Assembly: GCA_944347775.1 (NCBI GenBank)
Contig: CALVMT010000072.1
Span: 38,383 to 102,382 of the forward strand
DNA from: an uncultured Clostridia bacterium
Lineage (GTDB): Bacteria > Bacillota > Clostridia > Christensenellales > Christensenellaceae
Direction of reading: 5' to 3'
Length of the DNA stretch: 64,000 nucleotides
Shown: positions 2,850 through 39,913 of the stretch, piece after piece
Numbering within the stretch: position 1 is the stretch's first letter
Layout of the letters: every line of letters starts with the position of its first letter
Position numbers and translations under genes: made by a program
Notes under the pieces: model-generated
The model's database searches: none
Told to the model about the DNA's origin: nothing
What the model saw: the letters and a program-made list of their open reading frames with translations, nothing else

Positions 2850-3389
2850 TTATGAAAATAAAGGTTTTGATGTTCCCCAACGAGAAGAGGTCTCTAAAAC
2901 AGGTTTTCCTTTTTTTAAAGAGGAAGGAATATTTAAAATACGCTGATTTCTTGAACCACGAAAGGTTATGGATAAGCTCCGTTCTTTTAGTAAAAATGGT
3001 CCGTCAATTAACGTATCCGCCAGAGATATAAGGGAAAGTGCATCACCACCGGAAGATAAAATTTCTTCAAAAGTGTAACCAGTATAAATAGCTAACTCGT
3101 AACTTTCCTGCTTAAGTTGACGTGCTAAAGGCAATAACGGTTTTGCCTGTAAAAGAGGTTCTCCTCCGGAAAACGTTACGCCACGAACTAAAGGATTGGC
3201 AGAGATCCGTGCAAATAAAGCGTGGGCGGAAATTGTTGTGCCTCCCCATAATGGTAAGGATTGGGGGTTGTGACACCCAGGGCAATAGCGCAGGCAACCT
3301 TGAAGAAAAATTACTGCGCGGATGCCGGGACCGTCAGTAATTGATTCACCAATAAAACCAGCAATGCGAATATTACTTTCTTCAGACAC
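2850..3389 (-). CDS. nrdG: Anaerobic ribonucleotide reductase activating enzyme NrdG
   Basis: Radical SAM activase, 179 aa, that generates the glycyl radical on NrdD using S-adenosylmethionine and a [4Fe-4S] cluster. The cluster motif CX3CX2C is visible at C32, C36 and C39. TFSGGEPLLQ (about residues 92-101) is the SAM-contact GGE motif. The length is normal for the family. The gene overlaps the end of nrdD by 8 bp, so the two are co-transcribed and probably translationally coupled. It acts in the cytoplasm under anaerobic conditions. Confidence 0.96.
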   Translation of the reverse strand: MSEESNIRIAGFIGESITDGPGIRAVIFLQGCLRYCPGCHNPQSLPLWGGTTISAHALFARISANPLVRGVTFSGGEPLLQAKPLLPLARQLKQESYELAIYTGYTFEEILSSGGDALSLISLADTLIDGPFLLKERSLSITFRGSRNQRILNIPSSLKKGKPVLETSSRWGTSKPLFS

Positions 3390-19324: not shown

Positions 19325-20389
19325 ATGAATATCAGAGTTGAAAAAATTGCAGTACCTAAGCAGAAGCCTGACGAGAAAAATTTGGGTTTTGGCAAATTTT
19401 ATACCGACCATATGTTTGTCATGGATTATGATTCCCATAAGGGATGGCATGATGCCCGTATTGTACCTTACGGCCCGATTCCATTAGAACCGACTTGCGT
19501 TACCTTGCACTATGCGCAGGAAACTTTTGAAGGGCTTAAGGCTTATCGTACAGCAGAGGGGAAAATTTTGTTGTTTCGTCCTGAAATGAATGCCAGAAGA
19601 ATGATAAATTCTAACCGCCGTTTATGTATGCCGGAATTCCCGGAAGAAATGTTTGTAGAGGCAGTAAAAGCAATTGTTAAGATGGACGCAGATTGGGTAC
19701 CTTCCGAGCCTGAGACATCTTTATATATTCGTCCATTTATGTTTGCTACTGAAGGCGCTTTAGGTGTACATGCAGCAAATTCTTATAAATTTGTTATTGT
19801 TTTGAGCCCAAGCGGTGCGTATTATAAAGAAGGTGTAAATCCGGTTCGAATTTTGATAGAAGATGAATTGGTTCGCGCAGTAAAAGGTGGAACAGGTTTT
19901 GCAAAGTGCGGTGGCAATTATGCAGCATCGATTCTTGGCCAGGTAAAGGCTGAAAAAAAGGGATGTGCACAGGTATTGTGGTTGGATGGTGTAGAAAGAA
20001 AATATGTTGAAGAAGTCGGGACAATGAATGTAATGTTTAAAATTAACAATGAAATTTATACGGCACCGATTGACGGCTCCGTACTTCCTGGCGTGACCAG
20101 AGATTCAATTTTGCATATTTTAAGAGATTGGGGCTATACTGTTCATGAAGAACGTTTGTCAGTAGATGATTTGATGGCAGCCGGTCATTCAGGCGCATTG
20201 GAAGAAGCTTTTGGGACAGGAACAGCGGCAGTGATTTCTCCTATCGGAGAATTTATTTATAAGGAAGATTCTGTTAAAATTAATGATTTTAAAACGGGTG
20301 AATTGACACAAAAATTATATGATTACCTGACCGGTATCCAGTGGGGTAAAGAAGAAGATAAATATGGTTGGACAACAGTAGTTGAATAA
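19325..20389 (+). CDS. ilvE: Branched-chain amino acid aminotransferase
   Basis: PLP-dependent class IV aminotransferase, 354 aa, interconverting Leu, Ile, Val and their 2-oxo acids with glutamate. Family landmarks include the N-terminal FGKFYTDHMFVMDY, LHYAQETFEGLKAYR, RPEMNARRM, FVIVLSPSGAYY, and KGGTGFAKCGGNYAAS (which carries the PLP lysine). EEVGTMNVMF and LPGVTRDSIL follow. Length and motifs match the long BCAT type. An AAAGGAG site precedes the ATG. It is monocistronic with its own promoter and terminator. Confidence 0.95.
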   Translation: MNIRVEKIAVPKQKPDEKNLGFGKFYTDHMFVMDYDSHKGWHDARIVPYGPIPLEPTCVTLHYAQETFEGLKAYRTAEGKILLFRPEMNARRMINSNRRLCMPEFPEEMFVEAVKAIVKMDADWVPSEPETSLYIRPFMFATEGALGVHAANSYKFVIVLSPSGAYYKEGVNPVRILIEDELVRAVKGGTGFAKCGGNYAASILGQVKAEKKGCAQVLWLDGVERKYVEEVGTMNVMFKINNEIYTAPIDGSVLPGVTRDSILHILRDWGYTVHEERLSVDDLMAAGHSGALEEAFGTGTAAVISPIGEFIYKEDSVKINDFKTGELTQKLYDYLTGIQWGKEEDKYGWTTVVE

Positions 20390-35644: not shown

Positions 35645-38170
35645 TTAGGCCGTTTCGATTGTAGCGGCTTTTTGTAATCCAAGTTTTTTAATGGCATCTT
35701 CTCGCATTTTATATTTTAATATTTTTCCTGCGACATTCATGGGAAACTCGGTAACAAAGTCGATATATTTAGGAACTTTATGGCGCGCCATATGCGAGAC
35801 AATGTATTCTCGCATTTCTTGCTCGGTCATTTCAGCACCTTCTTTTAAAATAATACATGCCATAATTTCTTCGCCGTAACGTTCATCTGGAACACCAATA
35901 ACCTGTACGTCCTGGACTTTCGGATGCGTATAGATAAATTCTTCTATTTCTTTAGGATAAATATTTTCTCCACCACGGATAATCATATCTTTGAGACGGC
36001 CAGTAATGCGGTAATTGCCTTCCGGAGTTTCGCAAGCCAAATCTCCAGTATGTAACCACCCATCTGAATCAATTGCAGCTTCGGTCGCACGAGGCATTTT
36101 ATAATATCCTTTCATAATATTATAACCTCTGGCTACAAATTCACCAATTTCGCCAACAGGCATTTCCTGATTGGTTTCTGGGTCGACAATTTTGCATTCA
36201 ATTTCAGGAAGTGCTCGCCCGACTGTTGCAACACGAACTTCTAACGGATCATCTGTGCTACTCATGGTGCAGCCTGGAGAAGCTTCGGTTTGCCCATAAA
36301 CTATTGTAATTTCTGTCATGTGCATCTTATCTACAACGTCTTGCATAACGGAAATTGGGCAAGGGCTTCCTGCCATAATTCCGGTGCGCATATAGGAAAA
36401 ATCGGTTTTAGGAAAATCTTCATGTTGTAACATAGCGATAAACATGGTGGGAACACCGTGAAAACAGGTGACGCGTTCATTAGTCACGCAGGCAAGTGCG
36501 GGTTTAGGTGAAAAATAAGGCAGAGGGAGCAACGTAGCGCCATGTGTCATTGCAGCAGTCATGGCCAAAACCATGCCAAAACAATGGAACATCGGCACCT
36601 GAATCATCATACGGTCAGCTGTCGAAAGATCCATGCGGTCTCCAATGCATTTACCGTTATTAACAATATTATAGTGAGTTAACATTACACCCTTGGGGAA
36701 ACCGGTTGTTCCTGAAGTATACTGCATATTACATACATCGTGAACATCTACTGCTGCTGCCATGCGGTGAACTTGTTCTAATGGAATGCGGTTTGCACGG
36801 GCAACGGCTTCTTCCCAAGTTAGGCACCCTTTTTGACGGAAACCTATGGAAATTACATTGCGCAGGAAGGGTAAGCGTTTGCAGTGGAGGGGTTCTCCGG
36901 GTCGTGTATGCTCTAATTCTGGGCATAATTCAGCAACAATGGCAGAATAGTTGGAATCCCGATAACCGTCAATCATAATGAGCGTATGCGTATCTGATTG
37001 GCGCAGCAGGTATTCTGCTTCATGGATTTTATAAGCCGTATTGACCGTGACTAAAACAGCTCCTATTTTTGTTGTTGCCCAAAAGGCAATATACCATTGG
37101 GGTAAATTGGTTGCCCATATTGCAATGTGATCTCCATTTTTTACACCTAAGGAAATAAGGGCGCGTGCAAAAGTATCCACATCGTCACGGAATTCGGAAT
37201 AAGTGCGGGTATAGTCCATTGTGGTGTACTTAAATGCCAATTGATCAGGGAATTCTTCAACCATTTTATCCAAAACCTGAGAAAAAGTTCTATCAATTAA
37301 AATATCTTTTTTCCAGATAAACTTACCGGTACCGGTATTATTGCTATATAAATGGTCCCGCAAACGCGCTGGTTTTTCAAATTTTCCCATAATGCTGATA
37401 AAGTGAGAAAAAATGACTTCCATATCATCGATATCATGTTTCCAATGAGGATCCCATTCCAACGAAATAAAACCGCTGTAATTAATGGAGCGTAAAGCGT
37501 TAATCATTTCGTGAAGAGGCAAAGAGCCTTCGCCGATTAAACGATATTCAAATTGCCCGTTAACAAGTTCCGAATCTTTAATATGCACATGTTTTGTGTA
37601 GGCTCCAAGATTTTGTATCGTTGTTTCGGGAGATTCTCCATTGATCCGGTAGGGATGGTTGAGATCCCATAAAGCAGCAAGGGAATCGCAAGCAAAATGA
37701 TTTAATATATCTCTTAATTTTTCAGTATTGGTATAAATTCCAGTTGTTTCAATCAGAATAATTACGCCCAATCGTTCGGCTGTAGGAAGAAGCTGCTCCA
37801 GGCAAGAGATTACTGCAGCATCGTCTTCGGCTTCCGTACCGACACGTGTAGCCCGGACTCGGACGTAAGGAATATTTAAATTAAACGCTGTATGCAGGCA
37901 TGAAGAAATTTCGTCGCATGCGTCTTTTTGTGCTTGCGGATCTGCAATGTTGCTTACGGAATCAAGGCAAGAAATGGATAAATTGCGTTCCATTAGATCA
38001 CGGCGAATAGGCGCAGCCATGACTGCGTTGGCTGGACTATATTTATTTGAAAAATCAGATGAACGAATATCGTATAATTCAATGCCGGCAAAGCCGAGTT
38101 CCTGAGCAACATCACAAAAATTTTGAAAAGAATAACCATTCCAACCTTTTGTGGAAAAAGAGAGTTTCAT
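35645..38170 (-). CDS. Fusion of a sugar isomerase/epimerase-type TIM barrel and an acyl-CoA ligase
   Basis: An 841-aa protein with two unrelated enzyme domains. Residues 1 to about 265 match the xylose-isomerase-like TIM barrel (AP endonuclease 2 family), with LSFSTKGWNGYSFQNF, ELYDIR, ETTGIYTN, LWDLNHPYR, HVHIKDSE and FISLEWDP, including metal-type residues. Residues from about 290 form an AMP-binding acyl-CoA synthetase: YTSGTTGFPKG (about 483), VYGQTEASP, DGWLHTGDLA, GRLKDMIIRGGENIYPKEIEE and the C-terminal Lys in GKILKYKM. The second domain resembles medium/long-chain fatty-acyl ligases. The start overlaps the LeuA-like stop by 4 bp (ATGA). The reaction is unknown; the fusion is unusual. 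Confidence 0.85.
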   Translation of the reverse strand: MKLSFSTKGWNGYSFQNFCDVAQELGFAGIELYDIRSSDFSNKYSPANAVMAAPIRRDLMERNLSISCLDSVSNIADPQAQKDACDEISSCLHTAFNLNIPYVRVRATRVGTEAEDDAAVISCLEQLLPTAERLGVIILIETTGIYTNTEKLRDILNHFACDSLAALWDLNHPYRINGESPETTIQNLGAYTKHVHIKDSELVNGQFEYRLIGEGSLPLHEMINALRSINYSGFISLEWDPHWKHDIDDMEVIFSHFISIMGKFEKPARLRDHLYSNNTGTGKFIWKKDILIDRTFSQVLDKMVEEFPDQLAFKYTTMDYTRTYSEFRDDVDTFARALISLGVKNGDHIAIWATNLPQWYIAFWATTKIGAVLVTVNTAYKIHEAEYLLRQSDTHTLIMIDGYRDSNYSAIVAELCPELEHTRPGEPLHCKRLPFLRNVISIGFRQKGCLTWEEAVARANRIPLEQVHRMAAAVDVHDVCNMQYTSGTTGFPKGVMLTHYNIVNNGKCIGDRMDLSTADRMMIQVPMFHCFGMVLAMTAAMTHGATLLPLPYFSPKPALACVTNERVTCFHGVPTMFIAMLQHEDFPKTDFSYMRTGIMAGSPCPISVMQDVVDKMHMTEITIVYGQTEASPGCTMSSTDDPLEVRVATVGRALPEIECKIVDPETNQEMPVGEIGEFVARGYNIMKGYYKMPRATEAAIDSDGWLHTGDLACETPEGNYRITGRLKDMIIRGGENIYPKEIEEFIYTHPKVQDVQVIGVPDERYGEEIMACIILKEGAEMTEQEMREYIVSHMARHKVPKYIDFVTEFPMNVAGKILKYKMREDAIKKLGLQKAATIETA

Positions 38171-39585
38171 TCTACGATTTCCTCCTCATAGACAATTTTG
38201 TTAAGTGCATTTAGATATGCTTTGATACTTGCGCCGATAATATCGGTAGATGTTCCGTTCCCTGAATATAGCCTTCCATTTGAACGCAAACGCACAAGAG
38301 CAGATCCCATTGCTTCGCGCCCTTCGGTAACGGCCTGGATTTGGAAATCATCCAGTTCATAATGGTGACCTACAATTTGCTCTATAGCTATGAAAGAAGC
38401 ATCTATTGGCCCATCTCCCGTGCAAATACCGGATATCGGCTGACCATTTCTTTCTAGCTGTATATTGGCAGAAGCATTGATGACATTCCCGCTGTTAATT
38501 ACATAACTGATCAGCTTATATGTTGATGGAACTTGAAGCGCTGTACTTGCAATAATTGCATCAAACTCTTTGGTGCCAATATTTTTTTTGGAAGCAACAT
38601 TGCAAAAAGCTTCATATACTTTAATATTATCTTCTTCAGAGAGATCATAGCCCAGTTGGTGCGTTGCCTTAATTATTGTTTCTAAAGAATCGTTTTTATC
38701 TAAAGAAATTTGTAAATTGCTGTTATTTGCTCCGTTTTCAAAGGGAGTAGATTGTGCGCGGCGGGTTTGTGTAATCCAATTAATTTGACGGATGATCCGT
38801 TGCATTTCAGTAAATTTTAAATTGCAGCGCAAGCCCAGCATATCTCCGCGGTGACGAATGATATTAGCCGCCGCAAAAAGTGTTGCATAAGATGCACTAC
38901 TTGCAGCAGCTTTAATATTTGTTGCTCCAGCTTGCACTGCCTGAATGGAACAGGCTGCAGCAACGTGTAATGTATCTGAACACTGAACGGACAGGGTTAC
39001 TTTTTTTAGAGAAGGAATTTGTTCATACAACCTTTCGATAAATGCCTTAAATTCATCGGGCATCATTGCGCCCGCTGTATCGCAGATACTAATTATTGTA
39101 GCGCCAGCCTCGATTGCTGCTTGAATTGCTAAAGAAAGAAAGTCTTCTTCGCTCCTTGCTGCATCTTCAGCGGAAAATTCTACTTCCGGGCAAAGCTTTT
39201 TTGCCGCAGAAATCAAACTGGAGATCATTTCTAAAACAGCAGGAGCTTTTTTTTGGCAGGTATATGCCATTTGAATAGGAGAAACAGGCACATTAACAAC
39301 CAGGCGAGGATGCGTTGCATTTTTAATTGCTTCCCAAGAAGTTTCAATTGATTGCGGATTTAAGGCAATGGGTAATGCAACTGTACTATTATGTACGAGT
39401 GAAGCGATTGTTTTAATGAGTAAAGTATCAGTCTTTTCATCTTGCAAGGGAGCAAATTCAATAGCATCCACCTGTAACTTATCTAATTGCTTTGCAATTT
39501 CAATTTTTTCTTTAAAGCTCAGAGCGTTATCAATGCGGTGAGCCTCTTCCCGCAAAGTGATGTCTGTAAATGTAATGGTCTTCAA
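38167..39585 (-). CDS. LeuA-family (2-isopropylmalate synthase-like) protein lacking the usual metal ligands
   Basis: Homologue of alpha-isopropylmalate/citramalate/homocitrate synthases, 472 aa. The Claisen-condensation barrel is recognisable: ITFTDITLREE at the N-terminus, VEFSAEDAARSEEDFL, CDTAGAMMPDEF, and a C-terminal LeuA-dimer region from about 380 with GDGPIDASF. Key changes are clear: the LRDG motif is LREE, the metal-binding HCHND is QCSDT, and the GERAGN loop is SSASYAT. The divalent-metal triad is thus apparently lost, so classical LeuA chemistry is doubtful. The start is TTG at 39585, 8 bases after AAGGAGT. A T-box leader controls it. Confidence 0.83.
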   Translation of the reverse strand: MKTITFTDITLREEAHRIDNALSFKEKIEIAKQLDKLQVDAIEFAPLQDEKTDTLLIKTIASLVHNSTVALPIALNPQSIETSWEAIKNATHPRLVVNVPVSPIQMAYTCQKKAPAVLEMISSLISAAKKLCPEVEFSAEDAARSEEDFLSLAIQAAIEAGATIISICDTAGAMMPDEFKAFIERLYEQIPSLKKVTLSVQCSDTLHVAAACSIQAVQAGATNIKAAASSASYATLFAAANIIRHRGDMLGLRCNLKFTEMQRIIRQINWITQTRRAQSTPFENGANNSNLQISLDKNDSLETIIKATHQLGYDLSEEDNIKVYEAFCNVASKKNIGTKEFDAIIASTALQVPSTYKLISYVINSGNVINASANIQLERNGQPISGICTGDGPIDASFIAIEQIVGHHYELDDFQIQAVTEGREAMGSALVRLRSNGRLYSGNGTSTDIIGASIKAYLNALNKIVYEEEIVE

Positions 39586-39615
39586 AATTAAATACTCCTT
39601 TTTTACTGGTTAAAT

Positions 39616-39913
39616 AAAAAAATCCCTGAAGCCTTACGACTTCAGGGACGAAATTACTCGTGGTACCACCCTGTTTGCTAAAACATTAAAATAATTATTC
39701 ACACTGCTTCAGCCACTTAATCGAAATTCAAATAAATTTCTAGCCATGATAACGGGGCATCCGTAACTCCTTATCCTTACTATTATTACGACTCGGGAGT
39801 TCTGCTCTGGAATGAGACTGCATTTTTTGCTTTGATTGGCTTGCACCATCCGCCAATTCTCTAATTCAATACAAAATATACATAATTCCTTCAACGCATT
39901 TATTAATGAAAGT
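39616..39913 (-). promoter_or_regulatory. T-box riboswitch leader of the LeuA-like operon
   Basis: The conserved T-box sequence AGGGTGGTACCACG reads on the minus strand at 39672-39659. The terminator follows: CCCTGAAG (39647-39640) pairs with CTTCAGGG (39631-39624), then seven U (39622-39616). Upstream, a stem I with distal loop is visible (ATTGGC pairs with GCCAAT, about 39857-39836), and AGTAAGG resembles the AGTAGG element. A likely specifier is CUC (Leu) at 39799-39797 in the context GAACTCCC; this codon choice is an inference. Uncharged tRNA would favour antitermination, so the operon is induced on shortage of the matching amino acid. Confidence 0.9.

Follow-up and report, generated by a model that had tools for sequence, protein, structure and literature searches.

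A Putative LeuA-like Pseudoenzyme and an Acyl-CoA Ligase Fusion Behind a Leucine T-box: Probable Leucine-controlled Activation of Isovalerate in Clostridia

Introduction

The question raised by this locus is what a leucine-responsive operon might do when its first gene encodes a LeuA homologue stripped of its catalytic motifs, and its second gene fuses a xylose-isomerase-like barrel to an adenosine monophosphate (AMP)-forming acyl-coenzyme A (CoA) ligase. Both genes lie in a 64,000-nucleotide stretch of contig CALVMT010000072.1, from an uncultured Clostridia bacterium of the family Christensenellaceae; this whole stretch is referred to here as the window. An earlier note, made from the letters alone, had found that the set matched no known pathway and had suggested either a new branch of branched-chain acid or lipid synthesis or a new chemistry in the LeuA-like protein. 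The reading that we consider probable is that the operon provides leucine-controlled activation of isovalerate for leucine synthesis via reductive carboxylation, with the LeuA-like protein as a pseudoenzyme leucine sensor. The underlying observations were obtained by computation and comprise the anatomy of the locus, the T-box specificities, the lost active site and the conserved regulatory domain, the gene pairing, the pathway neighbours and the missing classical leucine genes.

According to passages of PMC7356843, which cites Allison 1962 and 1966, leucine can be formed by carboxylation of isovalerate followed by amination; these passages place the demonstration in rumen bacteria in the 1960s and describe branched volatile acids as growth factors for ruminococci. 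Among the papers listed in searches of an open-licence library, none named the genes of the isovalerate-to-leucine route.

Anatomy of the Locus

The features of the operon are listed below.

39641..39903, minus strand: Leu-specific T-box leader, RF00230 (cmscan 110.2 bits, gathering score 93)
39814..39816, minus strand: T-box specifier codon CUC (Leu), from the RF00230 alignment and the sequence; a Leu codon stands at the same position in relatives
38167..39585, minus strand: putative LeuA-like pseudoenzyme, 472 residues, TTG start, far under the LeuA equivalog cut-offs
38776..39576, minus strand: degenerate HMGL-like triosephosphate isomerase (TIM) barrel (residues 4-270) with metal ligands lost, from the alignment
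38188..38538, minus strand: LeuA regulatory (LeuA_dimer) domain (residues 350-466), PF08502, highly conserved (mean pairwise identity of family members 74%)
35645..38170, minus strand: fusion of xylose-isomerase-like barrel and AMP-forming acyl-CoA ligase, 841 residues, from the open reading frame (ORF) call and Pfam
37406..38170, minus strand: xylose-isomerase-like TIM barrel (residues 1-255) with an intact putative metal site E141 D169 H172 H196 E238, from Pfam and the alignment
35675..37300, minus strand: AMP-forming acyl-CoA ligase domain (residues 291-832) with intact core motifs, from Pfam and the alignment

The T-box with a probable Leu specifier, proposed in the earlier note, was confirmed by a score above the Rfam gathering level and by the CUC codon. 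The same holds for the claim of two overlapping genes, the second a barrel/ligase fusion: the ORFs overlap by 4 bp (38167-38170) and the arrangement recurs in relatives. The Pfam matches were HMGL-like (138.6 bits) and LeuA_dimer (104.7 bits) in the LeuA-like protein, and AMP-binding (309.2 bits), AP_endonuc_2 (PF01261, 99.3 bits) and AMP-binding_C (66.6 bits) in the fusion.

Recurrence of the Gene Pair

The LeuA-like protein was used as a query against genome contigs. At least 570 of the 596 candidate stretches were confirmed and the best 80 were kept; these relatives were 48-77% identical to the query over nearly its full length and came mostly from gut and rumen records. The adjacency proposed for checking in the earlier note was found in 76 of the 80, the fusion directly following the LeuA-like gene, and the other four contigs (L009, L033, L061 and L077) stop 210-383 bp after the LeuA-like gene, L009 including the start of the fusion. 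The gene pair is therefore confirmed as real and widespread and not due to chance. An assembly join, which the earlier note had allowed for, or a frameshift artefact was excluded by the same fusion and gene order in many separate assemblies, including the strain records L015, L021, L023 and L071.

A survey of 243 genomes of the class (completeness at least 90%) was also performed. The LeuA-like protein, counted as present at more than 460 bits, a threshold of our own under which unlisted lower-scoring fragments could be missed, occurred in 22 of them (split over two contigs in G119), and all 22 also held the fusion. Adding 13 loci from 21 further class genomes with the LeuA-like gene to the best 80 gave a set of 93 loci. 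The fusion adjoins the LeuA-like gene in 89 of these, the remaining four being cut by contig ends, and the median gap between the two genes is 2 bp. The fusion frame looks broken in L034 and L076.

Loss of the LeuA Active Site and Conservation of the Regulatory Domain

The 81 LeuA-like proteins, the window protein included, were aligned with seven LeuA proteins from carrier genomes that have both. The LeuA metal ligands, D, H, H and N, are replaced by E, Q, S and Y in the window protein; none of the four is kept in 79 of the 81 and one in the other two, against four of four in all seven LeuA. The substitutes vary, with E in 39, Q in 18 and L in five proteins at the first position, Q in 44, E in 12 and S in eight at the second, S in 58 at the third, and Y in 18, A in 14 and F in 11 at the fourth. 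In all 81, the alignment has gaps at the GER part of the GERAGN motif and at the SGIHQ His, the catalytic one. The motif exchange described in the earlier note (LREE, QCSDT and SSASYAT for LRDG, HCHND and GERAGN) is thus correct and extends over the whole family. As for metal ligands restored elsewhere, which the note had also raised, no His was found among the positions at least 97% conserved within residues 1-270 of the 81 proteins; the nearest candidate, position 111, is His in 52 of the 81 and Gln in the window protein. With a TIGR00973 score of 282.1 bits against an equivalog cut-off of 598.7, the LeuA-like protein fails LeuA membership on all three features tested, namely the metal ligands, the catalytic His and the equivalog score.

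The opposite pattern was observed in the regulatory domain. Among the 81 LeuA-like proteins, the barrel had a mean pairwise identity of 0.447 against 0.742 for the regulatory domain, and the order was reversed among the seven LeuA (0.655 and 0.504, respectively). Residues invariant in the seven LeuA were kept in 90% or more of the LeuA-like family at 22 of 108 barrel positions and at 16 of 23 positions of the regulatory domain (Fisher p ~1e-5). The regulatory domain was closer to that of the seven LeuA (identity 0.396) than to those of three citramalate synthases (0.220) or two PRK03739-type LeuA (0.267). A decaying LeuA pseudogene was excluded by this conserved domain. The AlphaFold2 model of the LeuA-like protein (predicted local distance difference test 87, predicted template modelling score 0.60) matched LeuA structures, including the leucine-bound 3fig.

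Compared with LeuA (TIGR00973/PRK00915), the LeuA-like protein shares the fold, the domain order and the C-terminal LeuA_dimer domain, with 40% mean identity to the seven LeuA in that domain. It differs in lacking all four metal ligands and the catalytic-His segment, in its length (472 residues against a 494-position model), in its pairing with the ligase fusion and in having a regulatory domain more conserved than its barrel. Taken together, the alignments suggest a pseudoenzyme with a preserved, putative leucine-binding domain. HisG-HisZ is a pair of an enzyme and a pseudoenzyme regulatory subunit. The likeness that we propose is an inactive enzyme paralogue acting as an allosteric subunit; here, the relic stems from a different pathway and would regulate an unrelated enzyme.

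A less derived LeuA-like member was found in L104 (TIGR00973 338 bits, cut-off 599), in which the D and both H ligands are already gone, as judged by eye; its locus holds ParA-like, VorB, KorB, aminotransferase, LeuA-like and fusion genes in one run. Class-survey matches of 350-390 bits, considered as evolutionary intermediates, turned out to be canonical LeuA with 31-34% identity to the window protein.

T-box Specificity

T-box leaders usually precede ilv-leu genes or a tRNA ligase gene. In the present family, a complete T-box with a Leu specifier, as in other RF00230 leaders, stands before the gene of a LeuA relic and that of an acyl-CoA ligase fusion. A T-box precedes the pair in 77 of the 93 loci. 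The core motif was found before the LeuA-like gene in 65 of the 80 relatives and Rfam added four more (L032, L037, L051 and L079), while the 13 class loci gave four by motif and four by Rfam (L111-L114). The core-motif pattern overlooks T-boxes that Rfam detects; a motif-negative leader is thus no proof of absence.

The final rule for reading specifiers was fixed after the leaders had been read, and the remaining leaders were read by eye. Applied to 66 motif-bearing leaders (65 loci and the window), the rule gave CUC in 49 and CUG in 11; CUC was only a later candidate in L047, L050 and L071, reading by eye gave CUC in L043 and CUG in L078, and the leader of L016 is truncated. The Rfam-only leaders of the 80 read CUC, CUG and CUG, plus a CUC by eye, and the eight class-locus leaders read CUC, which stands at the expected offset among several candidates. 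A Leu codon was therefore found in all readable leaders before the pair. The T-box before ileS in L105, a positive control, read AUC by eye. These results indicate that the operon is probably switched on under leucine shortage.

Pathway Neighbours and Classical Leucine Genes

The neighbouring genes in the 93 loci included an IlvE type II aminotransferase in 13, VorB of the 2-oxoacid:ferredoxin oxidoreductase (VOR) in 21 (19 co-directional) and a NifJ-type oxidoreductase in 20. VorB or the NifJ-type protein was present in 41 loci, and the aminotransferase together with one of these in 11. Five loci (L046, L047, L048, L056 and L107) share the order Leu T-box, LeuA-like gene, fusion, aminotransferase, ParA-like gene, VorB and KorB, with 15-59 bp between the fusion and the aminotransferase.

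A ParA/CobQ-like ATPase, with a weak PF01656 match or none, regularly lies just before VorB (e.g., L008:9545-10222 and L119:7912-8598), and an Amidohydro_2 protein without an NCBIfam match was seen in 26 of the 93 loci, often straight after the fusion (e.g., L050:6723-7547).

Gene content was then compared over 51 carrier genomes, namely those of 50 of the 80 loci and the window genome, and over the class survey; kinship among genomes weakens every p-value of these co-occurrence tests. VorB scored over its cut-off in 40 of the 51. The NifJ-type gene adjoins the pair in nine of 10 genomes lacking VorB and in eight of the 40 others (p ~8e-5; L020, with VorB on two contigs, was counted as having it), as if VorB and the NifJ-type protein substituted for one another. 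Counting both LeuA types, the class survey gave a LeuA over the cut-off in four of 22 genomes with the LeuA-like protein and in 160 of 221 without it (p 9e-7); the two types were found in 78 and 86 genomes, with no overlap (hand count).

In the window genome, the profile search gave no LeuA of either type, LeuB or IlvC over the cut-off. All three step candidates are present: the fusion, a VorB of 552 bits on another contig (L119), accompanied by beta- and gamma-like subunits under the named cut-offs, and the following aminotransferase, which is 58% identical to the one adjoining the pair in L048.

19325..20389, plus strand: branched-chain amino-acid aminotransferase proposed for the last step, in the window but away from the pair (TIGR01123 407.5 bits, cut-off 250.05)

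The window genome also holds another HMGL-like protein of 464 residues with FRDG and HGHND motifs (L002:1045-2439), which adjoins an apparent Lrp-type regulator and an aminotransferase, as seen by eye, and which we take to be possibly a Re-citrate synthase.

Sister Ligases Preceded by Ile or Val T-boxes

An MbcS-like ligase, in which helix-turn-helix, cupin and AMP ligase parts form one protein of about 755-795 residues that scores under the MbcS cut-off, was encoded by 28 genes in 21 of the 93 loci (e.g., L008:7278-9545). A T-box core lies within 450 bp upstream of 27 of these genes, and the 28th (L109) holds 64 bp upstream. Rfam confirmed eight of the leaders at gathering level (L008, L010, L028, L036, L042, L055, L068 and L111), and two further leaders, with 74.6 bits (E 2e-16) and 84.0 bits (E 8e-19), stayed under it. 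Read by rule, eye or alignment, the codons were AUC (Ile) in 20 and Val in six (GUA in L028, L045, L055, L062 and L078; GUC in L042), with the second L024 copy unread. Of two tandem copies, one was Ile and the other Val in all six loci where both were read. The single MbcS-like ligase of the window genome (L159:3581-6007) is 65% identical to the L008 copy, lies ahead of the VorB cluster and follows a T-box core reading GUC (Val), according to the core motif. Ligases behind Leu, Ile and Val T-boxes that share VOR fit isovalerate, 2-methylbutyrate and isobutyrate, and the Ile and Val T-boxes at the sister ligases raised our confidence in the isovalerate reading.

In some tandem pairs the Ile copy comes first and the Val copy second, followed by the ParA-like gene and VorB/KorB. 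In L113 (2763-3370), a second T-box (3118-3370, 116 bits) with no clear codon precedes a 508-residue protein without an NCBIfam match, beside a cobalamin riboswitch on the opposite strand.

The Isomerase-like/Ligase Fusion

The ligase domain is near-invariant over 64 full-length fusions, that of the window included. The P-loop motif YTSGTTGFPKG was present in all 64, the A10 motif holds GK in its four commonest types, and K816 was kept in at least 98% of the fusions. The fusion shares the AMP-forming acyl-CoA ligase fold and motifs with MbcS and PRK12583-type ligases; it differs from them in its additional N-terminal xylose-isomerase-like barrel and in scoring under the named-family cut-offs, the closest NCBIfam model being PRK12583 (712 bits, cut-off 832).

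The class survey gave 72 genomes with the fusion, counted by hand and including four truncated or frameshifted cases. The fusion without the LeuA-like partner is itself widespread, being found in 50 of the 243 genomes (regions L121-L152). The isomerase metal site E-D-H-H-E, as assigned by us, was complete in all 31 full-length partnerless fusions against 29 of 76 partnered ones, and it is complete in the window protein. Barrel identity was 0.641 in partnerless and 0.411 in partnered fusions, while ligase identity was 0.803 and 0.767. This suggests that the gain of the LeuA-like partner accompanied a relaxed constraint on the isomerase site, and that isomerase catalysis is not needed in most carriers.

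Of the 76 partnered ligases, 75 formed one clade with a support of 0.999 in a tree from which only the unrooted clade was used. L103, which lies outside, belongs to a genome with LeuA, and no T-box was found at its locus. L102 and L103 are of one genus, and both have the pair without a detected T-box and LeuA in the genome, as might arise from a second pairing or a replacement. The core-motif search, made without an Rfam scan, gave no T-box on the fusion strand in the 33 of 50 partnerless regions fetched (L141 having no upstream DNA) and in five barrel-less ligase regions. The neighbours of partnerless fusions varied; that in L146 is followed by ParA-like, VorB and KorB genes.

Proposed Mechanism and Alternatives

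In the route that we propose, isovalerate taken up from the gut would be the starting acid. Leucine shortage would leave tRNA-Leu uncharged and allow read-through at the T-box, and the ligase part of the fusion, whose substrate is most likely isovalerate judging from the context, would convert it to isovaleryl-CoA. VOR, or perhaps the NifJ-type enzyme in other genomes, would form 4-methyl-2-oxopentanoate by reductive carboxylation, and the branched-chain aminotransferase would then yield leucine. The LeuA-like protein probably forms a complex with the fusion, as the pairing and the conservation pattern suggest, perhaps barrel to barrel; through it, leucine would presumably inhibit the first committed step by feedback, as with LeuA of the classical pathway. 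Sister Ile and Val circuits would drive the MbcS-like ligases, presumably for 2-methylbutyrate and isobutyrate.

The steps expected of the isovalerate carboxylation route (Allison and colleagues 1962, 1966, as cited in PMC7356843) are activation, reductive carboxylation and transamination. Candidate genes for each of them adjoin the pair in related loci or are found at other places in the window genome. To this route the locus adds a putative leucine-sensing pseudoenzyme and a Leu T-box. The interpretation of the earlier note is partly supported: the pathway neighbours and T-box specificities agree with its link to branched-chain acids, and they fit the three steps above rather than no pathway at all, while its suggestion of a new chemistry is opposed by former active-site positions that vary freely and by the lack of a near-invariant His substitute. 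A catabolic role in leucine degradation was judged unlikely because expression is tied to leucine shortage and the AMP-forming ligase costs ATP.

Several observations weigh against the isovalerate reading. No T-box was detected before the pair by core motif and Rfam in 16 of the 93 loci, of which L059 and L072 hold less than 300 bp upstream. Classical genes scored over their cut-offs in part of the 51 carrier genomes, with LeuA in 12 (seven TIGR00973 and five PRK03739), LeuB in eight, with four more full-length at 251-267 bits under the cut-off, and IlvC in 18. The window genome is a 90%-complete draft, so its gene absences are provisional, and its pair adjoins neither VOR nor the aminotransferase. 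The NifJ-type neighbour exceeds the pyruvate oxidoreductase cut-off (1624 bits against 911) and may be an ordinary pyruvate oxidoreductase. The ligase matches no family whose assignment names isovalerate. The fusion lacks a LeuA-like partner in 50 of its 72 class genomes and must therefore have a role without it. Lastly, the LeuA-like barrel may bind a ligand, because 22 of its 108 LeuA-invariant residues are still 90% conserved.

Among the alternatives, the one that survives best, though we regard it as unlikely, is that the acid activated by the ligase is a different one, for instance a compound made or altered by the isomerase barrel, in a route not yet described that leads to leucine or to a similar product. 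In favour is the isomerase metal site, which both the window protein and all 31 full-length partnerless fusions retain; its incompleteness in most partnered fusions speaks against this reading, as does the Leu/Ile/Val ligase trio, which fits three branched volatile acids.

It is also improbable that the LeuA-like protein remains catalytically active and acts on a 2-oxo acid or an acyl-CoA by a new chemistry that needs no metal. The barrel was modelled with high confidence and holds the near-invariant residues D8, T10, E43, D141, R144 and D169, and the retained LeuA-invariant residues point in the same direction. Against this, the former metal ligands vary, the SGIHQ His is gapped throughout the family, no near-invariant His takes the place of these residues, and conservation is lower in the barrel than in the regulatory domain.

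A further possibility, to which we give little credence, is that the isovaleryl-CoA made by the operon mainly primes the synthesis of iso-branched fatty acids and does not serve leucine formation. Iso-fatty acids are usually primed by isovaleryl-CoA, the ligase resembles fatty acyl-CoA ligases, and leucine shortage would limit isovaleryl-CoA too. This explanation is countered by the five loci with aminotransferase and VOR in one gene run behind one Leu T-box, by the sister ligases with Ile or Val T-boxes, which precede VorB in many loci, and by the lack of LeuA in most carriers. An assembly join or a set of decaying pseudogenes, which the lost catalytic residues and the draft genome might have suggested, is almost inconceivable given the same fusion and order in many assemblies, the open frames and the strongly conserved ligase and regulatory domain.

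Conclusion

We lean, with some reserve, towards a broader view in which the leucine-sensing domain of LeuA, on a catalytically dead body, was carried over to an alternative pathway to leucine and there regulates a first enzyme unrelated to LeuA, and in which this protein, the ligase fusion, the Leu T-box and the Ile/Val sister ligases together make up the missing gene set for branched-chain amino acids from branched volatile acids in gut and rumen Clostridia. The locus family offers testable gene candidates for the isovalerate-to-leucine route at hundreds of loci. If the proposal is true, it would explain leucine synthesis in such bacteria without the textbook pathway, and the prediction of amino-acid auxotrophy for genomes without LeuA would need changing. 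It would also be a clear example of how an enzyme of metabolism can become a detachable sensor for an amino acid.

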